DNA of 64,000 nt from Klebsiella pneumoniae (GTDB lineage Bacteria > Verrucomicrobiota > Verrucomicrobiia > Limisphaerales > SXTU01). A program made the translations under genes and the position numbers. The stretch lies in assembly GCA_943330855.2 (NCBI GenBank), contig CALQJI020000019.1:1-64000 (forward strand). The letters run 5' to 3'. The notes beneath the pieces are model-generated. The model made no database searches, was not told the DNA's origin, and was given only the letters and a program-made list of their open reading frames with translations. Shown here in pieces: positions 14,786 to 47,784 of this stretch (its first letter is position 1; every line of letters begins with the position of its first letter).

Positions 14786-15763
14786 ATGACACGCCCCCCT
14801 CTCGCTTCTTTGCCCAAACCCCGTTCCCGCCGCGAGTTTTTAGCTGCCAGCACCGTGCTGTGTGGGACGTGGGCGGTGGCGCGAGCGGCGGAGGCTTCCT
14901 CACCGACCCCGCCGCCCGAGCCCATCATCGACATTCACCAGCACACTCATTACCACGGCCGCACGGACCTGCAGATGCTCGCGCACCAGCGCGCGATGGG
15001 CGTGACGACGACTCTCCTGCTCCCGGCGGGACGCGTCGCCGAGCGCCCGTCCACACACACCGGCAAGTCCAACGGCCTCGCTGCGCGGTGCACCGGCAAC
15101 GAAGCCGTGGTGGAATTCGCCAAAGCCCACCCCGGTGAATTCCTCTTCGGAGCGAACGAAATCACGGACCTGCCGGAGGCCAAGGGCGAGATCGAGAAGT
15201 ATCTCAAACTCGGCGCGAAGCTCATCGCCGAGCAGAAATTCGGGGTGCAATGCGATTCGTCCGAGAGCGAGTGCCTCTATGCGTTGGCGGCTGACTACGG
15301 GGTGCCGATCCTCCTGCATTTTCAGGAAGGCACTTACAACTCCGGTTTTCAGCGGCTGCCCGCGATGCTGAAGAAGTTCGCCACGACCACCTTCATCATG
15401 CACGCGCAGACGACCTGGGCGAACATTGACGCCAACTACGACTGGAAATCCCTCTACCCCACCGGCCCCGTCGCCAAGGGCGGCCTCACGAGCAAGTATC
15501 TCGCGGACTACCCGAACTGCTTCGCCGACATGAGCGCAGGCTCCGGGCTGAACTCCCTCCTGCGCGACGAGGAACACACGCGCTGGTTCCTCGCGCAGCA
15601 TCAGGACAAAATCCTCTACGGCAGCGATTGCGCGGACACGCTTGGGCGCGGGCCCGGCTGCCAGGGAGCCGGCACCATCGCCGCCCTGCGCAAATACGCG
15701 GCGAGCAAAGCCGTGGAGCGCAAAATCCTCTTCGAGAACTCGAAGAAGTTGTTCCGTCTGTGA
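14786..15763 (+). CDS. Tat-exported amidohydrolase family protein
   Basis: A 325-residue TIM-barrel metal hydrolase (COG2159-like). The N terminus RSRREFLAASTVLCGTWAVA is a twin-arginine signal with a hydrophobic core. Metal-binding features are IIDIHQHTHYHG (HxH on the first strand), an ILLHFQEG strand with a His, FIMHAQTTW with a His and LYGSDCAD with the late Asp. Inference: a periplasmic or exported hydrolase or decarboxylase; the substrate cannot be read from sequence. The start is the ATG at 14786. It is a single gene; a hairpin (15801-15843) follows. Confidence 0.87.
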   Translation: MTRPPLASLPKPRSRREFLAASTVLCGTWAVARAAEASSPTPPPEPIIDIHQHTHYHGRTDLQMLAHQRAMGVTTTLLLPAGRVAERPSTHTGKSNGLAARCTGNEAVVEFAKAHPGEFLFGANEITDLPEAKGEIEKYLKLGAKLIAEQKFGVQCDSSESECLYALAADYGVPILLHFQEGTYNSGFQRLPAMLKKFATTTFIMHAQTTWANIDANYDWKSLYPTGPVAKGGLTSKYLADYPNCFADMSAGSGLNSLLRDEEHTRWFLAQHQDKILYGSDCADTLGRGPGCQGAGTIAALRKYAASKAVERKILFENSKKLFRL

Positions 15764-15800
15764 CGCAGCCCGCCCGGGGTGCAACCGCGCACTGCCCCCG

Positions 15801-15843
15801 ATAGCCCACGGGCCGGAGCGCGCGCGCGAAGTCCGTGGGTTAT
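15801..15843. repeat. Hairpin after the amidohydrolase gene
   Basis: Arms ATAGCCCACGG (15801-15811) and CCGTGGGTTAT (15833-15843) pair at 10 of 11 positions across a 21-bp GC-rich loop. It lies 38 bp after the amidohydrolase stop. There is no T-tract, so a role in transcription termination is possible but not shown. Confidence 0.65.
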
Positions 15844-15978
15844 GAGCTTTCACCTCCTTGTGCGAAGCCCCCGCTGCGGCCCGGAGTGCCGCGCTCCGGG
15901 GCGGTGCACGAATGCGCCCGCTCGCCGCAGTTGCCCCTCATCTCGACAAGCATTCCACCGGCTGGCACGTTCGCGGGG

Positions 15979-16827
15979 TTGAACAATCAACTCGAACAAC
16001 TCCGTGCCCTGCTCCGTTCCTACGGCTCGTGCCTTGTCGCGTATTCGGGGGGCGTGGACTCGGTGCTCCTGGCCTTCGTCGCCCATGAGGTGCTCGGCGC
16101 TCGCGCGCTCGCGGTGATCGCCGACTCGCCCAGCCTGCCGCGCCGCGAGCTGGAGGAGGCGCTCGAACTGGGACGCCGCTTCAACTTTCCCGTTCGCATC
16201 GTCAAGACCGGTGAGTTCGACAACGCGAGCTACACGGCCAATCCCTCCAACCGCTGCTATTTCTGCAAGCACGAGCTGTTCGAGGATATCACTCCCATCG
16301 CCCGCGCTGAGGGGTTCGCGGTGATCGCTTACGGAGAGAACGCCAGCGACCTCGCTGATTTTCGGCCTGGAGCGCTCGCAGCGAAGGAGTTTCAAGTTCG
16401 CGCGCCGCTGAAGGAGGCCGGCCTCACGAAGGCCGACATCCGCGCGCTTTCCGCGCAGCTCGGTCTGCCCACCGCCGACAAGCCCCAGATGGCCTGCCTC
16501 AGCTCGCGCATTCCCCACGGGCAGGTGGTGACGCCGGCGAAGCTGCTCATGGTGGAGTCCGCCGAGACCGTGTTGCGGGAGCTGGGCTTTTACGATGTCC
16601 GCGTCCGCCATCACGAGGCCCCCGGTGTGCTCGCGACTCCGGGTGTCGCACCCGCGCTGGCCCGCATCGAGGTGGGCGTTGCAGAACTTCCGAAACTGCT
16701 GGAAGCCGGGCTGCGAGACCGCGTGACCGCTGCGTTGAAAGGCATTGGCTACACGGCGGTGGAGGTGGACACGCAGGGCTACCGGCGCGGCAGTTTGAAC
16801 AACCTCGCAGCAAATGCCGGAGGCTAA
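15979..16827 (+). CDS. larE: LarE-type ATP-dependent sacrificial sulfur transferase
   Basis: A PP-loop ATPase of about 282 residues. It has the pyrophosphatase loop AYSGGVDSVLLAFVA, then NRCYFCKHELFE, YGENASDLADFRPG and QMACLSSRIPHG. LarE adds sulfur to pyridinium dicarboxylate mononucleotide in nickel-pincer cofactor synthesis. The CxxC in RCYFC plus the Cys in ACLSSR match the three-cysteine variant thought to hold a [4Fe-4S] cluster, unlike the Lactobacillus enzyme, which has only the latter Cys. The frame is open from 15835; the TTG at 15979 gives the usual family length, but a GTG at 15904 is also possible. No larA, larB or larC is nearby, so its client is unknown. Confidence 0.88.
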   Translation: MNNQLEQLRALLRSYGSCLVAYSGGVDSVLLAFVAHEVLGARALAVIADSPSLPRRELEEALELGRRFNFPVRIVKTGEFDNASYTANPSNRCYFCKHELFEDITPIARAEGFAVIAYGENASDLADFRPGALAAKEFQVRAPLKEAGLTKADIRALSAQLGLPTADKPQMACLSSRIPHGQVVTPAKLLMVESAETVLRELGFYDVRVRHHEAPGVLATPGVAPALARIEVGVAELPKLLEAGLRDRVTAALKGIGYTAVEVDTQGYRRGSLNNLAANAGG

Positions 16828-22089: not shown

Positions 22090-23337
22090 ATGCTCTCGCC
22101 AATGTCACTGGCACCGTTCATCGCCTGGCTGGGTGTGCTCGGCTTTGCGGCGGCAAGTTTCTTCTTCGCGCTGGCGGAGACGGCGCTGTTCTCGCTGGGT
22201 AAATGGCGCGCGCGGCAGCTCGCCGAGCGGTCGCCGGCTCTGGGCGGTTCCGTCGCTGCGCTGTTGCACGAGCCACAGGATTTACTCGCGACGATTGTCC
22301 TGGGGAACACGCTTGCGAACACGGGGTTGATTGCGTTGGTGCTCTGGATGGGCTTGGGCGGGACGGGGGTGTATCTGGGGCTCACGCTAGCGGGAGCATT
22401 TCTGTTGATCCTGTTGGGTTGCGAGGTAGTGCCCAAGACGCTCGCGGTGCGGATGCCGGAGTTTTGGGCGCTACGTTTGGCGAGGCCGATGACACTTCTG
22501 GTGCGCCTCTCACGGCCTCTGCGGCAGGTGGCGCAGGGGGCGAACGAAGGTTTGCTGCGTCGGCTAATTCCCAAGTCTATCCAACCTCAGGCCACGCTGA
22601 CGGACGCCGATTATCATGAGTTGATTGAGCTGGCCTTCCAGCAGGGCACCCTCGCGGCGTCGGAGAAGGAAATCATCCTGCAAATCATTCAGCTCGACCG
22701 CCGCACGGCGAAGGATGTGATGCGCCCGCGCGCGCGCATGGCGAGTATTCCGGACAATTTGCGGGTCGAGGAGATGGTCGCGGCGGCGCGGAAGTTCGGG
22801 CACGAGCGGCTGCCACTTTATGACGAGTCGCCGGACACCATCGTCGGTATTCTAAACTGTCGCGCGCTGCTGCTGGAACCGAACGGAGACCTGGCGGATG
22901 CGATCGAATTCCCCTCTTTTGTGCCGGAGAGCATGAACTTGCTCCAGCTCCTGAGTGCGTTGCAGCGGCAACGGCGCGGGCTGGCAATAGTGATGGATGA
23001 ATTCGGCTCCACCGCCGGACTGGTCACGATGGAGGACATCATCGAGGCGATTGTCGGGGAAATTCGCAGGGAGGGGGAGGCTCCGGGCTTCGTGATGGAG
23101 CAAATCGGACCGGGCCGCTGGCGGGTGAACGGGACGATGCGGGTGGAGGATTTTCGACGCGAGTATCCTGAGTTGGGCGAGGTGGCTGGGGTGGATACGG
23201 TGGGGGGATTGCTCGTGGCGTTGAGGGAAGTGGTGCCGCAGACGGGCGAGTCCGTGGTTTTCGGCGGCGTGCGGTTGACGGCGCAGGTGGCCGATGAGCG
23301 GCGCGTGCGCGAGGTGCTGGTGGAGCGGGTAAAATGA
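22090..23337 (+). CDS. CNNM/CorC-type transporter (DUF21 + CBS pair + CorC_HlyC), gene 1 of 3
   Basis: A 415-residue protein. An N-terminal DUF21 membrane domain (about residues 8-190; ASFFFALAETALFSLGKWRARQL, GNTLANT, GCEVVPKTLAVR) is followed by a CBS pair (VMRPRARMASIPDNL, RLPLYDESPDTIVGIL, GLAIVMDEFGSTAGLVTMEDI) and a C-terminal CorC_HlyC-type domain. Members are linked to Mg2+ export or homeostasis and were once annotated as haemolysins. The start may be 22090 or the ATG at 22102. It heads a run of three related genes in the same direction. Confidence 0.9.
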   Translation: MLSPMSLAPFIAWLGVLGFAAASFFFALAETALFSLGKWRARQLAERSPALGGSVAALLHEPQDLLATIVLGNTLANTGLIALVLWMGLGGTGVYLGLTLAGAFLLILLGCEVVPKTLAVRMPEFWALRLARPMTLLVRLSRPLRQVAQGANEGLLRRLIPKSIQPQATLTDADYHELIELAFQQGTLAASEKEIILQIIQLDRRTAKDVMRPRARMASIPDNLRVEEMVAAARKFGHERLPLYDESPDTIVGILNCRALLLEPNGDLADAIEFPSFVPESMNLLQLLSALQRQRRGLAIVMDEFGSTAGLVTMEDIIEAIVGEIRREGEAPGFVMEQIGPGRWRVNGTMRVEDFRREYPELGEVAGVDTVGGLLVALREVVPQTGESVVFGGVRLTAQVADERRVREVLVERVK

Positions 23338-23344
23338 TTTTTTG

Positions 23345-23503
23345 GCCCCAGATGAAACACCGATGGCACACAGCTGAAGAGCGCAGCGCGGACGCCTGCG
23401 TCCGTAACGGGCGGTTGCGAGCATGGGCGGGCTGCGGACGTGGGCGTCCGCGCTCCAATGTTCTGTCTGTGTTCCATCTGTGGTTCATCTGTGGCTCAGA
23501 AAC
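23345..23503. repeat. Long imperfect inverted repeat with 11-bp periodicity
   Basis: The left arm (about 23345-23400) reads CAGATGAAACA, CCGATGGCACA, CAGCTGAAGAG and then GCGCGGACGCC. The right arm (about 23441-23503) is its approximate reverse complement (GGCGTCCGCGC then TGTTCCATCTG, TGGTTCATCTG, TGGCTCAG). The arms exceed 50 bp with about 40 bp between them. The element fills the gap between the first two CNNM genes, where it could form a large RNA hairpin. A related element is at 51311-51476. Confidence 0.8.
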
Positions 23504-23527
23504 AGTGGCGAAAGGAGGCTCATCGTG

Positions 23528-24514
23528 ATGGCGTGGGCTGTCTTTTTCTCCGTGCTGCTGCTTTGCCTGACGGTGTCGTTCATCCTGTCCGGCATGGAGG
23601 CGGGCGTGCTGGCGCTGAACCGGCTGCGTATCCGCAACCTGATGCGCAAGGGCGGTCGGCGCGCGCGGTTGCTGCACGGCTGGCTGGAGCAACCGGAGAA
23701 CTTTTTGTGGACCATCCTCGTGGGCAACACGCTGGCCAACTTTCTCGGCGGCGGTTTGGTGGTGTATGCGTTGCACCGGCAGTTTAAGGACGCGCCGGTG
23801 TGGTTCGCGCTCTGGACGTTGGTGATGGCGCTGCTCTTCTACGTTTGGTGCGAGCTGCTCCCTAAGATGCTTTTCTCGCGCTACCCGAACCGGCTTTCGC
23901 TGCAAGTCGCGCCGTTCTTCCGCCTGATCCATTTCCTGCTGCGCCCGCTGGTGGGTCTGACCACGACGTTGAGCGACGGATTGCTGCGCTGGACGGGCGG
24001 ACGGATCTTCACCGGGCACTTGTTCGCGAACCGCGACGAGCTCCGCCGGCTCATGCAGGAGTCCGCGCAGTGCATGACGAGCGAGGAGCGAGTCATGATA
24101 AATCGCGTGTTGGATTTACAGAATCTCACCGTGCGCTCAGTCGCTGTGCCCTGGGAAAAAGTGGTGAGCGTGGAGACCACGACGCCGATGAAGAACGTGA
24201 TGGAGTTATTCCGGAAGCGGCAGTTCACGCGGATGCCGGTGTGCGAATCGCGCACGGGCCGAGTGCGCGTGGCGGGGGTGCTGAGCTTGGAACGGTTGCT
24301 GTTCCAAGCGGAGGTGGATGAACGCAAGCTGGCGGTGGATTACTTGCAGCCGGCGCTTTATCTGGATGAAGAGCAGCGACTGGAAGACGCCTTGCGCGCG
24401 ATGCAACGGAGCGGCCAGCGGCTGGGCATCGTGCTGGCGCGCGACCGGAGCGAGTTGGGCGTGGTTAGCTTGGAAGACATTCTCAAAGCCGTCTTCGGGG
24501 AGGTGAGCCTGTGA
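23528..24514 (+). CDS. CNNM/CorC-type transporter lacking the CorC_HlyC domain, gene 2 of 3
   Basis: A 328-residue protein with a DUF21 membrane domain (ILSGMEAGVLALNRLRIRNL, VGNTLANFLGGG, CELLPKMLFSRYP) and a CBS pair (VAVPWEKVVSVETTTPM, FTRMPVCESRTGRVRVAGVL, RLGIVLARDRSELGVVSLED). It ends right after the CBS pair, so the CorC_HlyC domain present in both neighbours is missing. Position and sequence suggest an accessory paralogue, perhaps a hetero-oligomer partner; that is inference. The start is the ATG at 23528, preceded by AAAGGAGG (23511-23518), a strong ribosome binding site. Its stop overlaps the next start (GTGA), implying translational coupling. Confidence 0.88.
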   Translation: MAWAVFFSVLLLCLTVSFILSGMEAGVLALNRLRIRNLMRKGGRRARLLHGWLEQPENFLWTILVGNTLANFLGGGLVVYALHRQFKDAPVWFALWTLVMALLFYVWCELLPKMLFSRYPNRLSLQVAPFFRLIHFLLRPLVGLTTTLSDGLLRWTGGRIFTGHLFANRDELRRLMQESAQCMTSEERVMINRVLDLQNLTVRSVAVPWEKVVSVETTTPMKNVMELFRKRQFTRMPVCESRTGRVRVAGVLSLERLLFQAEVDERKLAVDYLQPALYLDEEQRLEDALRAMQRSGQRLGIVLARDRSELGVVSLEDILKAVFGEVSL

Positions 24515-40400: not shown

Positions 40401-41798
40401 CTATGCGGCGGAGCCGGGGAGTTGGCGCGCGAGGTAGTCCGCGATGTGAAGGGTCTCGATGTGCGTGGCCCCGGCCTGATCCAAGCCGGCGCGCATCTGG
40501 AGCAGACAGCCGGGGTTCGTCGTGACGATGCAGGTCGCGCCGGTGCGGAGGATGTTTGCCACCTTCCTGCCTTGGAGGCGCTCGGCCATCGCTGGCTCCG
40601 TGAGGTTGTAGCTGCCGGCGCTGCCGCAGCACACGTCCGACTCCGGCATCTCCACGAAGTTATCCCCGGCCACCGCCTTCACGAGGACCCGTGGCGCGTG
40701 GGTGATGCGTTGCGCATGGGCCAGATGACAAGCGTCGTGGAAGGTGACCTTCTGAGTTGAAGGTTGAAGGTTGAAAGCGGAAGCGGCGCCGCTGCCCGCT
40801 GACTGCTGAAAGCTGTCCGCTGAAAGCTGTCCGCTTGCCACGAGGAACTCGCTCAAGTCTTTCACCTTGGCGCTGAAGGCGGCGGCGCGCGGGTCATCGG
40901 GGAGCAAGTGGGCATACTCTTTCAGCGTCGAGCCGCAGCCGGCGGCGTTGATGATGATGGCGTCGAGCGGTTCGCGGGCGAAGGCGTCCAGGTTGGCGCG
41001 GGCGGCGGCGCGGGCGGCGGCGAGGTTGCCGCCGTGGGCGTGCAGGGCGCCGCAACAGCCTTGGTCAACGGGGGTGACGACATCGTAACCGGCGAGGTTC
41101 AGCAGGCGGATGCTGTTCTCGTTTGTGCGTCCGAACATGACGTTCATCACGCAGCCCCGGATGAAGCCGACGCGCCCGCGAGCCGGGGAGCTTTCTATAA
41201 GGAGGGCAGGCGGGCAGGAGGAAGGCAGCAACCCGGTTTTCTCCTGCCCTCCTGCCTTCCTTATAAATCCCGGCTTAATCCCGAAGGCCCGAGAGAGCTC
41301 CGGCAAGTTCCCTTCCCTCATCTCATCGGGGAGGAGGGCCAGCGAGTCGCGGATGAACTTGGGGAAGAGGTGGCCGGCGTCTGCCCACTTGAGCAGCCGG
41401 GCGGGGAGCAGGGCAAGTTTCATCCGCCACGGGTGCGGGAAGACGCGTTCGATGAGGATGCGGCGCAGGAAGGTTTGAAAGGGTGAGCGGTGATGGTGCC
41501 GTTCGATGTGGTCGCGCGTGGCTTCGAGCAGCGCTCCGTATTGGACGCCGCTGGGACACGCCGCTTCGCAAGCGCGACAACCCAAACAGTTGTCGATATG
41601 CCGGACCGCCGTGTCGCCCAGCGGGAGGCGGCCTTCCTGAAGCGCGCGCATCAAATAGATACGGCCCCGGGGCGAGTCGTTCTCATTGCCGGTCTCCAAG
41701 TAAGTGGGGCACGAGCCCAGGCAGAGTCCGCAATGGATGCAGGCGAGAGACTGCTTCTCATCCAAGAAGCGCGGGAGTGAGGGGGCAGGGCGGCTCAT
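40401..41798 (-). CDS. glcF: Glycolate oxidase iron-sulfur subunit GlcF
   Basis: A 465-residue iron-sulfur protein with two 4Fe-4S motifs (CIHCGLCLGSCPTY, CLGCRACEAACPSG), then two CCG domains (QGCCGALHAHGG and VCCGSAGSYN). GlcF passes electrons from the FAD subunits GlcD/GlcE to the quinone pool. The start is the ATG at 41798, from MSRPAPSLPRFLDEKQSLACIHC. Two in-frame low-complexity insertions stand out: a 25-bp-arm hairpin at 41196-41265 (encoding roughly residues 178-200) and heptanucleotide arrays at 40756-40839 (about residues 320-347, SGQLSADSFQQSAGSGAASA). glcD is not in the window, although glcE is upstream. Confidence 0.9.
   Translation of the reverse strand: MSRPAPSLPRFLDEKQSLACIHCGLCLGSCPTYLETGNENDSPRGRIYLMRALQEGRLPLGDTAVRHIDNCLGCRACEAACPSGVQYGALLEATRDHIERHHHRSPFQTFLRRILIERVFPHPWRMKLALLPARLLKWADAGHLFPKFIRDSLALLPDEMREGNLPELSRAFGIKPGFIRKAGGQEKTGLLPSSCPPALLIESSPARGRVGFIRGCVMNVMFGRTNENSIRLLNLAGYDVVTPVDQGCCGALHAHGGNLAAARAAARANLDAFAREPLDAIIINAAGCGSTLKEYAHLLPDDPRAAAFSAKVKDLSEFLVASGQLSADSFQQSAGSGAASAFNLQPSTQKVTFHDACHLAHAQRITHAPRVLVKAVAGDNFVEMPESDVCCGSAGSYNLTEPAMAERLQGRKVANILRTGATCIVTTNPGCLLQMRAGLDQAGATHIETLHIADYLARQLPGSAA
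40756..40839 (-). repeat. Two heptanucleotide arrays inside glcF (3 and 7 units)
   Basis: On the + strand 40756-40776 reads GTTGAAG, GTTGAAG, GTTGAAA. Then 40791-40839 reads GCTGCCC, GCTGACT, GCTGAAA, GCTGTCC, GCTGAAA, GCTGTCC, GCTTGCC. The coding consequence in glcF is the linker SGQLSADSFQQSAGSGAASA before the second CCG domain. Frame is kept. Confidence 0.85.
41196..41265. repeat. Near-perfect hairpin inside glcF (25-bp arms)
   Basis: The left arm 41196-41220 (TATAAGGAGGGCAGGCGGGC AGGAG) and the right arm 41241-41265 pair at 23 of 25 positions across a 20-bp loop. The element lies in coding sequence between the N-terminal ferredoxin part and the first CCG domain, and encodes IRKAGGQEKTGLLPSSCPPA and a few more residues on the glcF strand. 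Confidence 0.85.
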
Positions 41799-42574
41799 GG
41801 CAAAGGGGCAAGGCGGAGGGGTGAAGGCAAAACGAAAAAGGTAAGAGGCAAAAGGGGGACGGTCGCCGCTCGGCACTTTTGCCTTTTGCCGCTTACCTTT
41901 TGCCTTATCCCACCTCTCCTCCTCGGGTCCGGGAGGTTCGGCGGTGCCGTGGCAGAGTGGCGGCTCGGTTTGCTGGGCTGTCCAAGTGCGTTGCCGAGGT
42001 GGGTGAAGTGTATAAAAAGCCGCAGAAGTGCGTTGCCGAAGTGGCGGACGCTCTGCCGGATGTCCGGCAAGGCGTCGCCGAAGTGGCGGACGGGCTGCCG
42101 GATGTCCGGCAACGCATCGCCGAAGTGGCTGACACACCACTTGACACTCCGTGGCACATCTTTGACTGCACTGACACACTGCTTGACTCTCCGTGGCACA
42201 TCTTTGACTGCACTGACACACCACTTGGCACTCCGTGACACAGTTCCTAGTGGGGGATTGGGTTGCTGAGCGTTCCGGGACGCATTCCCCGATCGGGGAT
42301 TGGGCTGCCGAGGGTTCCGGGACGCATTCCCCGATCGGGGATTGAGCTGCCGAGGGTTCCGGGACGCATTCCCCGATCGGGGATTGGGTTGCCGAGGGTT
42401 CCGGGATGCATTCCCCGATCGGGGATTAGGCTGCGGAGGGTTCCGCACTGCTCTGCCGAAGTGACCGGAGGCTCCCGGAAGGTCCGGCAATGCGTCCGCA
42501 CGGTCAAAGACGGGCCGCTGCGTCGTCTTGACTACTGGTTTGAGGGTCTTGTGGAGGTTGCGGGACATCGGCAC
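41795..42574 (-). CDS. Candidate ORF of 14-residue repeats between glcE and glcF
   Basis: A 259-codon open frame. It starts at GTG 42574 (3 bp after the glcE stop) or ATG 42568 and ends in an ATGA overlap with the glcF start. The protein is a series of diverged 14-residue units such as HFGDALPDIRQPVR, RSGNASRNPRQPNP and AVKDVPRSVKWCVS, with a heptad-like alternation (xHFGDAL / PDIRQxV). The C-terminal 40 residues come from a separate heptanucleotide array (41824-41911). I recognise no family. Operon-like spacing argues for translation. Against it, the period (42 bp) divides by three, so other frames on both strands are also open, and the sequence may only be a tolerated repeat expansion. Confidence 0.4.
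   Translation of the reverse strand: MPMSRNLHKTLKPVVKTTQRPVFDRADALPDLPGASGHFGRAVRNPPQPNPRSGNASRNPRQPNPRSGNASRNPRQLNPRSGNASRNPRQPNPRSGNASRNAQQPNPPLGTVSRSAKWCVSAVKDVPRRVKQCVSAVKDVPRSVKWCVSHFGDALPDIRQPVRHFGDALPDIRQSVRHFGNALLRLFIHFTHLGNALGQPSKPSRHSATAPPNLPDPRRRGGIRQKVSGKRQKCRAATVPLLPLTFFVLPSPLRLAPLP
41824..41911. repeat. Paired heptanucleotide arrays forming an inverted repeat
   Basis: 41824-41858 reads AAGGCAA, AACGAAA, AAGGTAA, GAGGCAA, AAGGGGG. 41877-41911 reads TTTTGCC, TTTTGCC, GCTTACC, TTTTGCC, TTATCCC, approximately its reverse complement. The pair could fold into a hairpin immediately upstream of glcF (minus strand), in the place of its leader. Confidence 0.75.
41947..42534. repeat. Array of diverged 42-bp units (about 14 copies)
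   Basis: Units begin every 42 bp from 41947 (41947, 41989, 42031, 42073 ... 42493), mostly with CRT. Three sub-families are visible: CGTTGCCGAAGTGGCGGACG types (41989-42114), CATCTTTGACTGCACTGACA types (42157-42240) and CATTCCCCGATCGGGGATTG types (42283-42450). The last contains the 14-bp perfect palindrome TCCCCGATCGGGGA in each unit. Some units show 21-bp sub-periodicity. It lies wholly between glcE and glcF, with no unique spacers as in CRISPR. Confidence 0.9.
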
Positions 42575-42577
42575 GGG

Positions 42578-43564
42578 TCAAGTCGGGGGGGCGGGGAGGA
42601 TGCCGTGGGGGTCGAAGGTGGCTTTGAGCCGCTGAGTAAGAGCTTGGGGCACCGCGCTCTGGCTGGGCAAGGCGCTGCCGCGGTGGTGGAGGATGCCGTT
42701 CGCAGCCCGGGCAATGAAGGGCAGGGGGCCGAGGGCGGCGATGGCTTCGGGCAGTTGGCTGGGGAGCACGGAGCGGGTCTGGATGGCAGTGGGAGCGGAC
42801 CAAAAGACTTGTTCGTAGTCGGGCGCAAGGGCGGGCAACCCCTCACCCCGGCCCGCTCCCCTCATCTGATGAGGGGCGAGGGTGAAGCCGGTGGCGCGGG
42901 TGCGCTGCCATGCCACTTCCTCGGCGGTGCCGGCCAGACCAAGCACGAGGGTGAGGGTGCCGGAGGCGGTGCCGTCGGGGGCGAGGTTGTGGAGGTCGAG
43001 GATAACGGGGGTGAGGGGGGATTGAAGGAGGTTTTCCACCGCCGCCCACGCGGCCGTGAGGGTGGGGAACTGCGCGGTGAGAATGACTTCTTCAACTGGC
43101 AGGGGGCGGAGCTTAAAGGTGGCGGCGCTGATGATGCCCAGGCTGTCCCGCGCACCGACGAAGAGTTTCAGCACGTCGTAGCCCGCTACATTCTTCACCA
43201 CTTTCCCGCCGGAATGGGTGACGCGGCCATCGGCCAGCACCGCTTCCAGCCCGATGAGGTGCTCACGGATGGTGCCGAAGCCGCAGCGCCGAGGGCCGCA
43301 GAGGTTTTCGGAGAGAAGCTGATGGAGGGTGACGCGTTCCGGGTGGGGCGGGTCGATGGGAAGCCACTGGCCATGAGCGGCGAGGGTGGCTTGGAGGGCG
43401 GCGAGGGTGAGGCCGCCTTCCGCGGTGATGGTCATGTCCTCGGGGGTGTATTCGCGGACGGCCGTGAGGGCGGCGAGGTCCACGGCGGTGACCGGAAGCC
43501 GAGCGGCGTGGGCATCCGCAAGGCGGCGAGCGAGGTCCGGGAGGCTGACGGGGGTGAGGGTCAT
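42578..43564 (-). CDS. glcE: Glycolate oxidase FAD-binding subunit GlcE
   Basis: A 328-residue FAD_binding_4-type protein. Motifs are YTPEDMTITAEGGLTLAALQ (PCMH/FAD domain), GPRRCGFGTIREHLIGLEAV, THSGGKVVKNVAGYDVLKLF and GARDSLGIISAATFKLRPLP; the C terminus FDPHGILPAPP matches the family. GlcE pairs with GlcD and GlcF to oxidise glycolate to glyoxylate. A palindromic repeat (42839-42885) is inserted near the 3' end and encodes LAPHQMRGAGRGEG. The start is the ATG at 43564. The glcF gene follows after the 14-residue-repeat ORF; glcD is missing from this window. Confidence 0.88.
   Translation of the reverse strand: MTLTPVSLPDLARRLADAHAARLPVTAVDLAALTAVREYTPEDMTITAEGGLTLAALQATLAAHGQWLPIDPPHPERVTLHQLLSENLCGPRRCGFGTIREHLIGLEAVLADGRVTHSGGKVVKNVAGYDVLKLFVGARDSLGIISAATFKLRPLPVEEVILTAQFPTLTAAWAAVENLLQSPLTPVILDLHNLAPDGTASGTLTLVLGLAGTAEEVAWQRTRATGFTLAPHQMRGAGRGEGLPALAPDYEQVFWSAPTAIQTRSVLPSQLPEAIAALGPLPFIARAANGILHHRGSALPSQSAVPQALTQRLKATFDPHGILPAPPT
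42839..42885. repeat. Palindromic CCCCTCACCCCGG repeat inside glcE, copy 2
   Basis: The same element as 40244 and 43603: CCTCACCCCGGCCCGCTCCC followed by CTCATCTGATGAGGGGCGAG, hairpin arms CCCTCATC and GATGAGGGG. On the glcE strand it encodes LAPHQMRGAGRGEG without breaking the frame. Confidence 0.85.
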
Positions 43565-43684: not shown

Positions 43685-46108
43685 TCACGCGGCGGGCTGG
43701 GGGGCATCGCCGTCCAGCACCGTGCGGAGGGTGGTGAGGATCTTCTCGGCGGTGTAGGGCTTGGAGAGGAAGGCTTTCATGCCCAGCGCCTTGAGTTCCT
43801 CGAACTTGGCATCCTGATCCATGCCGCTGGTGGCGATGACTTTGATGTTGGGTTCGAGTTTCTTGAGCACGCGCATCATGGCGGGACCGTCCATGATGGG
43901 CATCATCACGTCGGTGAGCACGAGGTTGATGGTGGTCTTGTGCTGGGCAAAGAGGGCGAGGGCTTCGACGCCGTTGCCACTGGTGAGGACGCGGTAGCCG
44001 GAGCTTTCGAGGAGTTTGCTCGCGGCGGTGAGGATGCTGGCCTCGTCATCCACGATGAGGATGGTCTCGCCCTGACCGCGGGCGAGGGGTTTCTTCTCGG
44101 CGCGTGGCTCGAGCTTCGCATCGGGCGTGGCGGGGAAGAAGCAGGAGAAGGTGGTGCCTTTGCCGACTTCACTGGTGACCTTGAGGAAGCCGTTGTGGCT
44201 CTTGGCGATTCCTAGCACGGTGGAGAGGCCGAGGCCGGTGCCCTGGCCGTGGGCCTTGGTGGTGAAGAAGGGGTCGAAGATTTTCTCAAGGATGTCTGCG
44301 GGAATGCCGGTGCCGGTGTCGCTCACCCGCAGGACGACGTAAGGGCCGGGTTTGGCGGCGGCGTCGAAGGTGGCGTAGTGGGTGTCGATGGTGATGTTCT
44401 CGGAGAGGATGTTGATGGAGCCACCGTTGGACTGGGCGTCGCGGGCGTTGATGCAGAGGTTGAGGAGAACTTGGTGGAGGTGAGTGGGGTCGCCGATGAT
44501 GGGCCAGAGGTCGCGGCTGTTCTTGGACTGGACCGTGATGTTCTTGGGGAAGGTTTCGCGAACGATCTTGGTCATTTCATCTACCAAGTGCCGGAGGTTG
44601 ACGACGACGCTCTCGCCTTCCATGCCCCGGGCGAAGGCGAGGAGTTGCTTGACGATGTCGGCCCCGCGCTGGGCGCTGGTCTCGATGTTGCTGATGAGCA
44701 TCTCCGTCTCGCGCGGCCCCAAGCCCTGTCGCAAGAGCGGGGCGGACATCATGATGGGAGCGAGGATGTTGTTGAGGTCGTGAGCCACCCCGCCCGCGAG
44801 TGTGCCGATGCTCTCCATGCGCTGGGAGCGGAGGAACTGAGCTTCAAGTTTCTTCTGCTCGGTGAGGTCGGTGTTGATGGCCAGGACGGCGCTGGGGTGG
44901 TTGTCCGCGTCGCGCACGAGGGTCCAGCGGGAGCTGACGAGGACTTCGGTGCCGCGCTTGGTGAGGTGGCGTAGCTCACCGCTCCACGAGCCCTTTTCGA
45001 GGAGCTCCGCTTGAGCGGCGTCGAAGACGGCCGTGTCCCGATACAGCAGCTCGGTGACTTGATGGCCCTTGATCTCTTCCGCCGTCCAGCCGAAGAGGCG
45101 TTCCGCGCTCTTGTTCCACGAGGTGATCCAGTGGCCCAGGTCGCGGACGAGGATGGCGTCTTGGGCGAGGTCAATGAGGCTGGCTTGCTGGAGAATTTTG
45201 CGCTCGGCCTGCTTGCGCTCAGTGATGTCGCGGAAGCTCCAGACGCGGCCGACGATCTGTTCGCCGACGCGCTGGGGCTGGGAGTAACGCTCGAAGATGC
45301 GGCCGTCCACGAACTCGATGAGGTCGTAGCTCGCCGCCTCGGGCGTGGCGTTGAGCTCGCGGAATTTCTGGTTGAAGCTCTCCGGATCTTTGATTTGCCA
45401 GAGGACGGCGTTGAGCATGTCTTGGTAGTGCTTCGACGCGATGAGGGAGGGGGGGAGATTCCAGATGGCGAGGAACCGTTTATTGTGGCCGGCCATGCGG
45501 CCTTGCTGGTTCACCACGAGGATGCCGTCGGCGGTGGATTCCAGCGTGGCCTGGGTGAGGGCGACGGATTTCTCAAGCTGCGCGGTGCGCTCCGAGACGA
45601 GGGTCTCCATGCTCCGCATCTGGGAGCGGACCTGCTGGGCGAGGGACGACTTCTCGGTGAGCGCGACGACGAGTTGGCTGACTTCAACGTTGTCGAAGGG
45701 TTTTTTAAGGATGAGCAAGCGGTCGTTGCGGCCGAGCTTGCCGACCATTTCCTCCCACGAGTAATCCGAGTAGGCAGTGCAGATGACGCAATGCAGATGG
45801 GGGTCCGCCCGCCATAGATGTGAGATGGTCTCCACGCCGTCCCAGCCCGGCGGCATCCGCACGTCCACGAACGCCAGACTGTAGGGCCGGTGGTCCAGGA
45901 TGGACTGGGTGACGAGCGCGAGCGCCTCCTGCCCCTGATAGGCCGAGTCCAACTCGTATTCGAGGGTCGTCTCCTGCGGTAATTGATCGCCGAAGAGCGC
46001 CGCCTCGGCCGCGCTCAAGTCCGCCACCGCTGAGGGCGGCGGGCAGAGGATCTTGCGGAAGTCGTCGTGGATTGCGCGGTTGTCGTCGATGACGAGGAGG
46101 CGGTGCAT
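43685..46108 (-). CDS. Hybrid sensor histidine kinase (REC-PAS-PAS-HisKA-HATPase-REC)
   Basis: An 807-residue cytoplasmic protein. The N-terminal receiver has LLVIDDNRAIHDD and the phospho-Asp in FVDVRMPPGWDG. Two PAS domains follow (about 175-290 and 300-420), then HisKA with [14 protein letters not shown], a HATPase_c domain ([40 protein letters not shown]) and a C-terminal receiver (ILIVDDEASILTA, VLTDVMMPIMDG). It has no TM segment, so it senses a soluble or internal signal. It is one of three kinase genes in a row; no DNA-binding response regulator is next to them. The kinase core is paralogous to that of the gene at 47793-50990. Confidence 0.95.
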   Translation of the reverse strand: MHRLLVIDDNRAIHDDFRKILCPPPSAVADLSAAEAALFGDQLPQETTLEYELDSAYQGQEALALVTQSILDHRPYSLAFVDVRMPPGWDGVETISHLWRADPHLHCVICTAYSDYSWEEMVGKLGRNDRLLILKKPFDNVEVSQLVVALTEKSSLAQQVRSQMRSMETLVSERTAQLEKSVALTQATLESTADGILVVNQQGRMAGHNKRFLAIWNLPPSLIASKHYQDMLNAVLWQIKDPESFNQKFRELNATPEAASYDLIEFVDGRIFERYSQPQRVGEQIVGRVWSFRDITERKQAERKILQQASLIDLAQDAILVRDLGHWITSWNKSAERLFGWTAEEIKGHQVTELLYRDTAVFDAAQAELLEKGSWSGELRHLTKRGTEVLVSSRWTLVRDADNHPSAVLAINTDLTEQKKLEAQFLRSQRMESIGTLAGGVAHDLNNILAPIMMSAPLLRQGLGPRETEMLISNIETSAQRGADIVKQLLAFARGMEGESVVVNLRHLVDEMTKIVRETFPKNITVQSKNSRDLWPIIGDPTHLHQVLLNLCINARDAQSNGGSINILSENITIDTHYATFDAAAKPGPYVVLRVSDTGTGIPADILEKIFDPFFTTKAHGQGTGLGLSTVLGIAKSHNGFLKVTSEVGKGTTFSCFFPATPDAKLEPRAEKKPLARGQGETILIVDDEASILTAASKLLESSGYRVLTSGNGVEALALFAQHKTTINLVLTDVMMPIMDGPAMMRVLKKLEPNIKVIATSGMDQDAKFEELKALGMKAFLSKPYTAEKILTTLRTVLDGDAPQPAA

Positions 46109-46115
46109 TAGGAGC

Positions 46116-46150
46116 GGTTGAAAGGTGAAGGTTGAAAGGTGAAAGGGGCG
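46116..46150 (+). repeat. Heptanucleotide array upstream of a kinase gene, 5 units
   Basis: Units GGTTGAA, AGGTGAA, GGTTGAA, AGGTGAA, AGGGGCG occupy the leader (minus strand) of the kinase gene starting at 46108, beginning 8 bp beyond its start codon. Confidence 0.75.
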
Positions 46151-46203
46151 GGGCGAGGGCGGGCGATGCGGGCGAGTGGGGGCGAGGGGTTCATGGCGTA
46201 GGA

Positions 46204-47784
46204 TTAAGCCTTCGCCTCCGGCGGGTGGAGGGGGAATTCGAGGGTGAAGGTTGCGCCTTTGCCCGCGCCGTCGCTGTGGGCGCTGAGACTGCCGCCCATC
46301 TCCTTCGCCGCCAGCGCGCCGTGGTGGAGGCCGAAGCCGTGGCCCTGCGGCTTGGTCGTGAAGCCGTGCTGGAAGAGGCGCGACATGGTCTCGGGCGTGA
46401 TGCCCGATCCGGTGTCCCCCACGGAGATGCGGACGGAGTCGGGGCCGTTCATGGCGATGCGCACGGTCAAGGTTTTGTCCTTCACCTCCGGCTTGTCGAG
46501 CGCGTGCTTGGCGTTGGCGAGGAGGTTCACGAGGATTTGCATGACCTTGTGCCGCTCGAGGGTGGCGGTGGGCTTGGCAGCGAACTCCCGGCGCACGCGG
46601 ATTTCATGGCGGGTGAAAGAAATGGTGTTGAGCCGCAACGCGTCCTCGACCACATCCGCCACGGCCATCGCTTCGTGAATGCCCGTGACCTTCGCGTGGT
46701 TCTGCTGCATCGCGATGATGACCTTCACGTGCTCCAAACTTTGCGCGAGGGAATCGAGTTCCTTGAGCGCCTGCGCCTGTTCGTCCTGCAAGTGCGTGGC
46801 GAGGGTGCGGAGGAAGGCGGGCACCTGTTTGCCCTTCGGGTCCGTGGTGAGGAACTGGCTGAGCTGGCCTTCGTTCTCGGCGAGCAGCTTGGCGACGCGC
46901 TCGACGCTGGCGACCTTGGATTTGCGGACGCTCTCGGCCACGAGCGAGGCGGAGACGTTCACGCTGTTGAGGACGTTGCCGACGTTGTGCAGCACGCCGG
47001 TGGCAATCTCGGCCATGCCCGCGCGGCGCGCCGTGTCCACCAGCTCGCGCTGTGCGCGGTCCAAAGCCTCGGCGTCGGCGTTCATGCGCTGAGTGATGCG
47101 CCCGCCGTAGAAGACGGTGCTTCCGACCATCACGATCACGAGGCCCGCGACGACGAATTCCAGCCGACGCAGCCGGGCGACTTCCTCCATCTGCTTGTCG
47201 AAAATGCGGGTCTGGATGCCGCTGACTTGCAGGCGCAGGTCGGAGAGCACGGCCATGATACCGGCGTAGTCGCGGTTCACGTTCACAAGCCGGCGCGCGG
47301 CCATGTCCGGCGTGTCGCTCAGGAAGCGGTCGAAGAGGTTCTCCGCTGTCTCGACCATGCTGTCCACGGCGGCGGTGAGCTTGACGAAATCCTCGACGAG
47401 TTTGCGGCTCTCGATGCTCTCGACGGCCGTGAGCGCCTCACCGCGCTTGGCCCGGACGCGGATCTTGAAGGACTGGTTGGCGAGTTGCATCGCCTCCCGC
47501 TGCCGGGCCGGGTCGCGCGAGATGAACACGTCGTTACACCGTGCCTGCACGGCTTGGGCGGTGCTGATGAGGTCACTGTAATCGCGCAGCCGCCGGTCCC
47601 ACGAGTGGCTCACCTCCACGCTGCGGGTGAAGGCCTCCTGCATTTGATGGTTGAGCCAGAGGGTGAACCCGACGGTGAGGAGGTTGAAGGCCGCCAGCAC
47701 GTAATACAGCAGGTGCCATTGGTGCCGCTGGTGTGACTCTTTCGAGGGTTTTCCGGACGGGGTGGCTGGAGTCGAGTCGGACAT
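46204..47784 (-). CDS. Membrane sensor histidine kinase
   Basis: A 526-residue kinase with a TM at about 25-45 and another at about 184-206 (LEFVVAGLVIVMVGSTVFYG), flanking a helical sensor region of about 140 residues (4-helix-bundle type). The kinase core has the H-box EIATGVLHNVGNVLNSVNVS and HATPase motifs VNLLANAKHAL, VGDTGSGI, HGFTTKPQGHGFGLH. The HNxGN H-box differs from the classic HxxxN pattern of the neighbouring kinases. Inference: an inner-membrane sensor feeding the cytosolic hybrid kinases on either side. It lies 8 bp after the next kinase stop, so an operon is likely. Confidence 0.92.
   Translation of the reverse strand: MSDSTPATPSGKPSKESHQRHQWHLLYYVLAAFNLLTVGFTLWLNHQMQEAFTRSVEVSHSWDRRLRDYSDLISTAQAVQARCNDVFISRDPARQREAMQLANQSFKIRVRAKRGEALTAVESIESRKLVEDFVKLTAAVDSMVETAENLFDRFLSDTPDMAARRLVNVNRDYAGIMAVLSDLRLQVSGIQTRIFDKQMEEVARLRRLEFVVAGLVIVMVGSTVFYGGRITQRMNADAEALDRAQRELVDTARRAGMAEIATGVLHNVGNVLNSVNVSASLVAESVRKSKVASVERVAKLLAENEGQLSQFLTTDPKGKQVPAFLRTLATHLQDEQAQALKELDSLAQSLEHVKVIIAMQQNHAKVTGIHEAMAVADVVEDALRLNTISFTRHEIRVRREFAAKPTATLERHKVMQILVNLLANAKHALDKPEVKDKTLTVRIAMNGPDSVRISVGDTGSGITPETMSRLFQHGFTTKPQGHGFGLHHGALAAKEMGGSLSAHSDGAGKGATFTLEFPLHPPEAKA

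Follow-up and report, generated by a model that had tools for sequence, protein, structure and literature searches.

The window examined here, which is the whole stretch of 64,000 nt that was analysed, is located on contig 19 of a 5.42-Mb draft assembly of 153 contigs (designated G000), and it was compared with congeners and order relatives, the named records of which are Limisphaerales/Pedosphaera-type Verrucomicrobiota, with gene starts throughout being the output of a simple purpose-made predictor. On its reverse strand the window carries a glcE-like gene (42578..43564, 328 aa, FAD-binding, PF01565), whose TGA stop occupies 42578-42580, as the upstream partner of a glcF-like gene (40401..41798, 465 aa, with 4Fe-4S and CCG domains, PF02754 and PF13183). 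The assignment of these genes as glcE and glcF in the preliminary description agrees with the family search to the extent that GlcE and GlcF were the top NCBIfam equivalogs, but both scores were below the curated equivalog cut-offs. Directly upstream of the pair lie two histidine-kinase genes (43685-47784, reverse strand), not glcD.

The two genes are separated by 779 nt, and a 259-codon open reading frame (41795..42574, reverse strand), here called the relay ORF, spans this distance, starting with a GTG 3 nt past the glcE TGA, or with an ATG 9 nt past it, and ending in a TGA that overlaps the glcF start as ATGA (41795..41798, reverse strand). The frame and both of its ends are as originally reported, as are the unit peptides quoted from it and the 42-bp repeats at constant spacing, for which exact 42-nt direct-repeat spacing was observed from 41984 to 42491 with about 12-14 units in register, as compared to the approximately 14 claimed. 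The array (41984..42491, no strand assigned; RNA fold z = -5.2) is built from units of two 21-bp palindromic halves, among which the palindromic cores CCCCGATCGGGG and GCCGGATGTCCGGC, for example, recur, and TRF resolved it into sub-blocks at 42030-42133 (GCCGGATGTCCGGC; 2.5 copies, 90%), 42129-42242 (TGACAC/GTGGCA; 2.7 copies, 88%) and 42253-42445 (CCCCGATCGGGG; 4.6 copies, 93%). The array, however, makes up a part of the ORF and not the whole. At its glcF-side end lies a conserved, mostly non-array block of 99 nt, CTGCGGCTTTTTATACACTTC...CTCCCGGAC (41927..42025, reverse strand), which has identical length and phase in the congeners G002 and G004 and whose head, TTCTGCGGCTTTTT, also terminates an array on contig C17. 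This is followed by a TTTTGCC-type inverted repeat (41815..41922, no strand assigned), which bears no relation to the 42-bp units and is an interspersed element of intergenic DNA with many further copies in the genome (matches on C63, C113, C117, C47, C59 and others). The 259-codon frame crosses array, conserved block and inverted repeat alike.

The 42-bp array and the frame across it

The 42-bp array family was found at two loci in the searched G000 assembly, and in 2.4 Mb of G000 ten intergenic arrays of 2.8 or more copies fell in the period range 15-60, every one of them repeating at exactly 21 or 42 (positions including C13:37427, C15:2476, C17:5082, C18:23235, C1:126613, C2:89304, C10:62561 and C4:16449), from which it follows that the period belongs to the DNA element and not to a protein. 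Shorter intergenic arrays concentrate at periods of 7 and 14 (and 11), and the intergenic DNA shows a strict 7/21-bp register. A 21-bp array on contig C14 (L219 13265-13533), the TTCTACACGTCGG family of which was found again on C10, has a second half that is the reverse complement of the first and lies within a predicted 1485-aa ORF. Arrays of the same family as that at glc are situated directly upstream of an orphan 326-aa gene in both G000 (C17; L009 2660-2925) and G004 (C130; L069 450-780), where they finish in a common CTGCGGCTTTTT block. The 326-aa gene, for which no Pfam family was found, is 80% identical between the two genomes, and the position kept in both species suggests that array and gene are linked.

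Periods of exactly 21 or 42 bp correspond to two or four helical turns, the unit cores are palindromic, and, folded as RNA, the arrays score 5-9 SD lower than shuffled sequences (z -5 to -9), on both strands where tested (C17). These properties would suit an array which works as DNA or RNA, either through phased palindromes that bind a protein or through hairpins that adjust the ratio of glcE to glcF or the stability of the mRNA, the open frame then being secondary. Against such a role, inserts at the same junction in G010 and L137 (described below) are devoid of the array yet possess a relay ORF, no binding protein and no conserved RNA structure could be found, and such a role leaves the open frame unexplained; we therefore consider it very improbable as the main explanation.

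The open frame in G000 by itself constitutes weak evidence. As 42 is a multiple of three, each of the six frames reads the same 14 codons over again in every unit, and a frame that is without a stop in the array tends to remain open; among the 48 frames of eight array regions 5 were stop-free, and in the window other frames too extend far into the array. Dinucleotide shuffling gave P = 0.0065 for an open relay frame in G000 and P = 0.036, 0.003, 0.035 and 0.021 for the given frame in four further inserts (range 0.003-0.036), values which take no account of array periodicity, through which stop-free frames become more frequent than the shuffles would suggest. Such chance openness favours a neutral accident, whereby a minisatellite was inserted, its openness results merely from 42-bp codon periodicity in a GC-rich genome, and glcF is translated independently. 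Most genes in the scan are without a recognisable Shine-Dalgarno sequence, so that independent initiation without this motif would be normal. For the same reason the absence of a Shine-Dalgarno sequence, which occurs at only 4-21% of predicted starts in the genome, was dropped as evidence of coupling. A first point against the accident is provided by a control, in that the same array family outside the operon, before the 326-aa gene (G000 C17 and G004 C130), has no frame that is open in both species.

The openness of the frame and its position in the operon also speak for a real, novel protein of 14-residue repeats that is expressed together with the glycolate-oxidase-like subunits, as the preliminary description had proposed as one option. 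In the 99-nt block the pS/pN of the relay frame (pS 0.37-0.46, pN about 0.27) is slightly over that of the other frames, which hints at weak amino-acid constraint at most. The coding score, however, is negative: under a dicodon model trained on G000's own genes the relay ORF scored -0.06 per codon, as compared to a median of +0.32 and a 1st percentile of +0.11 for 908 predicted genes, and it had no match in Pfam or NCBIfam. When synonymous and non-synonymous changes between units were compared, amino-acid change proved near-neutral, with weak constraint at best; six G004 units showed a non-synonymous difference of 0.094 against a synonymous difference of 0.054 (pN > pS), and three G000 units showed the reverse direction on six differences. 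In G010 an ORF with the same ends specifies an unrelated peptide and contains no 42-bp unit, and the same DNA family occurs elsewhere as non-coding arrays. The relay ORF thus displays neither the dicodon signature of the genome's genes nor between-species conservation of amino acids. Its coding score, the family searches and the comparison between species all led to the rejection of a repeat-protein gene, and we regard this proposal as hardly credible.

The glcE-glcF junction across relatives

In contigs of related genomes the spacing between glcE and glcF was estimated at -49 to +27 nt for 52 of 56 junctions, and in the insert-free congeners G003, G005, G006, G007 and G008 the two genes are directly adjacent or overlap as GTGA or ATGA; the predicted ancestral state is one in which glcE and glcF touch. 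It is established that interspersed repeat DNA, here mostly a 42-bp palindromic minisatellite, occupies a glcE/glcF junction at which the stop and start codons of most relatives overlap or come close to touching. In two order relatives (G163:C43:11768-13243 and G186:C182:4816-5898) glcE and glcF are apparently one frame with a single TGA between them.

Four congener inserts are complete, measuring 779 nt in G000, 653 nt in G002, 863 nt in G004 and 407 nt in G010, and all four lengths are 2 mod 3. In each, one sense frame is free of stops (0, 4 and 2 stops per sense frame in G000; 0, 5 and 3 in G002; 0, 7 and 5 in both G004 and G010), every antisense frame holds 2-14 stops, and the relay frame has an ATG 9-12 nt past the glcE stop. 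A further insert, in G009, of which 124 nt are visible, is open solely in that same frame, and all five insert-bearing congeners (G000, G002, G004, G009 and G010) have an ATGA or GTGA at -4 nt on glcF. Each congener insert therefore has one sense frame which closes on the glcF start and which, where the insert is fully visible, opens just past the glcE stop, with content and length varying: G002 and G004 have a recognisable array or terminal block, and the G010 insert consists of other repeats. In another genus, L137 has an independent insert of 247 nt that is made of a different repeat and contains an ORF bordered by an ATGA on either side (2, 7 and 0 stops per sense frame). In L101, from another lineage, an open frame ends about 20 nt before glcF, with no start close past the glcE stop.

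A common origin is probable for the congener inserts, which are therefore not independent cases. In gene trees G005 and G008, which have no insert, fell among the insert-bearing congeners with weak support, so that a single clean monophyletic gain is not supported and losses or exchange are implied.

A neutral accident fits these junctions poorly. Five congeners whose inserts differ in content share one open frame, including G010, where the 42-bp unit is absent and the other two sense frames hold 7 and 5 stops, and a frame is open in L137 as well; to this may be added the lengths of 2 mod 3 in all four complete congener inserts. On this evidence, together with the replicated genome-wide excess described below, we consider an accident rather unlikely, and the relay frame looks to have been selected for openness, as judged from the sequences compared. 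The preliminary description had held that relatives with adjacent glcE and glcF and no unit, and with out-of-frame repeats elsewhere, would speak against its proposal. This situation was found in part, in that most relatives do have glcE and glcF touching with no unit, and elsewhere no frame of the array family is open in both of the species examined, which argues against the protein reading and not against the coupling reading.

Relay-type ORFs in other co-directional gaps

A relay ORF was defined for co-directional gaps of 150-300 nt as one which starts between -5 and +15 nt from the upstream stop and whose stop lies at -4 or -1 nt relative to the start codon that follows. These criteria were fixed on set 1 and applied unchanged to set 2, which consisted of new sequence. 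Relay ORFs were present in 11 of 119 gaps of set 1, as compared to 3.4 for a shuffled interior, 2.6 for an out-of-frame rotation and 2 for the reverse complement, and in 12 of 108 gaps of set 2, as compared to 5.25, 3.3 and 3, respectively; none of 100 shuffles equalled the observed count in either set. In each of two separate halves of the analysed sequence, relay ORFs in gaps of this size thus exceed chance by a factor of 2-4, and the replication of this excess in set 2 is a further argument against a neutral accident at glc. When split by content, repeat-bearing gaps had relay ORFs in 17 of 117 cases against 5.8 expected (reached by 0 of 200 shuffles) and the remaining gaps in 6 of 110 against 2.8 (12 of 200 shuffles), indicating that the excess lies mainly in repeat-bearing gaps. 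Most of the 23 relay ORFs have a gene score below zero; a few may be real small genes, and at least one (MKAYEELIK..., on C1) resembles such a gene.

Gaps of 300-1000 nt in G000 showed no excess (1, the glc ORF itself, against 0.9; 0 against 0.4), which rules out that long gaps are bridged in general and makes the glc case unusual in length. In other Verrucomicrobiota genomes no excess was observed among 27 gaps of 150-300 nt (1 against 0.85), a sample of low power.

Other relay gaps are occupied by other repeat families. The window itself contains a relay-type ORF at 23334-23528 (forward strand), consisting in part of a high-copy intergenic repeat (93 other matches), whose start overlaps the upstream stop as ATGA and whose stop shares 1 nt with the ATG that follows. 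A second, repeat-bearing relay ORF (15779-15982, forward strand; 18 other matches) lies between genes at 14876-15763 and 15979-16827 and closes at -4 nt relative to the start of the latter. A palindrome, CCACGGATGAAACACGGATT...CATCCGTGG, is interspersed in many gaps (L230, L231; C2 at about 129068 and 155365), with two cases in which it carries an ORF (MKHRLNTD...SVAQTQ, for example) whose stop is at -4 nt relative to the following gene. That a single repeat element always yields a relay was rejected, as the ATGAAACACCG-type palindrome is present in many gaps without the exact overlap.

A proposed translational relay and its comparison with known systems

Termination-reinitiation coupling at ATGA or GTGA overlaps is a known system (PMC10666635, PMC6728339), in which overlapping gene pairs are enriched for subunits of heteromeric complexes and reinitiation was nearly abolished at a spacing of 20-38 nt in the gene pairs tested (PMC10666635). 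With reinitiation near zero at such distances, several hundred inserted nucleotides would be expected to uncouple glcF if nothing brought the ribosomes across. We consider it probable that repeats were inserted at an overlapping stop/start junction and were tolerated only as an open ORF that relays ribosomes from glcE to glcF. Ribosomes which finish glcE would re-initiate on the relay ORF, translate across the repeats and re-initiate on glcF at -4 nt, thereby keeping two putative subunits of one complex translationally coupled, and the peptide made from the relay ORF would be a by-product. As untranslated RNA can provoke Rho-dependent polarity (PMC12548453), translation of the relay ORF would also spare the operon an untranslated stretch of 400-860 nt that could invite it. 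The array could lengthen or shorten without loss of frame, given that its 42-bp unit is a multiple of three. The idea of a relay arose at the glc locus, with L137, G009 and set 2 as its later support. The alternative offered in the preliminary description, a minisatellite expanded in frame with coupling maintained, comes close to the comparative evidence, with the coupling itself being predicted from sequence; it needs widening, as this junction has been occupied by repeats of several kinds, among them the array, and relay ORFs are over-represented genome-wide. The difference from ordinary ATGA/GTGA coupling is that at glc an ORF of 400-860 nt made of repeat DNA separates the genes and bears the overlap.

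The nearest parallel is with the mycobacterial interspersed repetitive units, or MIRUs (Supply et al. 1997), which, in the literature cited, are units of 46-101 bp at 41 loci in H37Rv, tandem and mostly intergenic, thought to be transcribed within operons and to disturb expression little upon insertion (PMC12548453, PMC3914561, PMC3635867), and which carry an ORF coupled at -4 nt to the gene that it precedes (PMC12548453). The glc insert resembles them as a repeat ORF at -4 nt on the next gene (G000, G002, G004, G009, G010 and L137), and in being placed at the former overlapping stop/start junction of co-directional genes that are presumably co-transcribed. It differs in its 42-bp units of palindromic 21-bp halves as opposed to 46-101 bp, in a family present at two loci as compared to 41 in H37Rv, in phylum, and in that several unrelated repeats play the same role at the glc junction, the G010 and L137 inserts not being such arrays. 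The glc insert may thus work like a MIRU, as judged by these features, and it is not classed as one given its unit length and locus number.

In Rickettsia, palindromic elements are inserted in frame within genes and extend the host proteins. There, as at glc, palindromic repeat DNA is tolerated through an open frame, but the glc case involves a separate ORF between two genes. To our knowledge, REP and other extragenic palindromes have no description as bridging ORFs. They share with the glc array the character of short palindromic repeats in intergenic DNA (PMC3733652), and the glc array differs in its strict 21/42-bp periodicity.

A broader proposition, which we advance tentatively and hold to be somewhat short of probable, is that the Limisphaerales lineage accommodates several unrelated interspersed repeats in its operons as relay ORFs that are selected only for their openness and for closing on the next start. 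If this is true, relay ORFs let repeat DNA enter an operon without uncoupling its genes, and represent a general, sequence-independent counterpart of the MIRUs. An 800-nt repeat between coupled genes should be costly, given that reinitiation is near zero beyond 20-38 nt (PMC10666635). On the relay reading, if correct, it is the openness of the ORF and the positions of its ends that are under selection and not its product, which would account for some of the repeat-made hypothetical proteins at operon junctions, would caution against calling such ORFs functional proteins, and would provide a natural test of long-range translational coupling.
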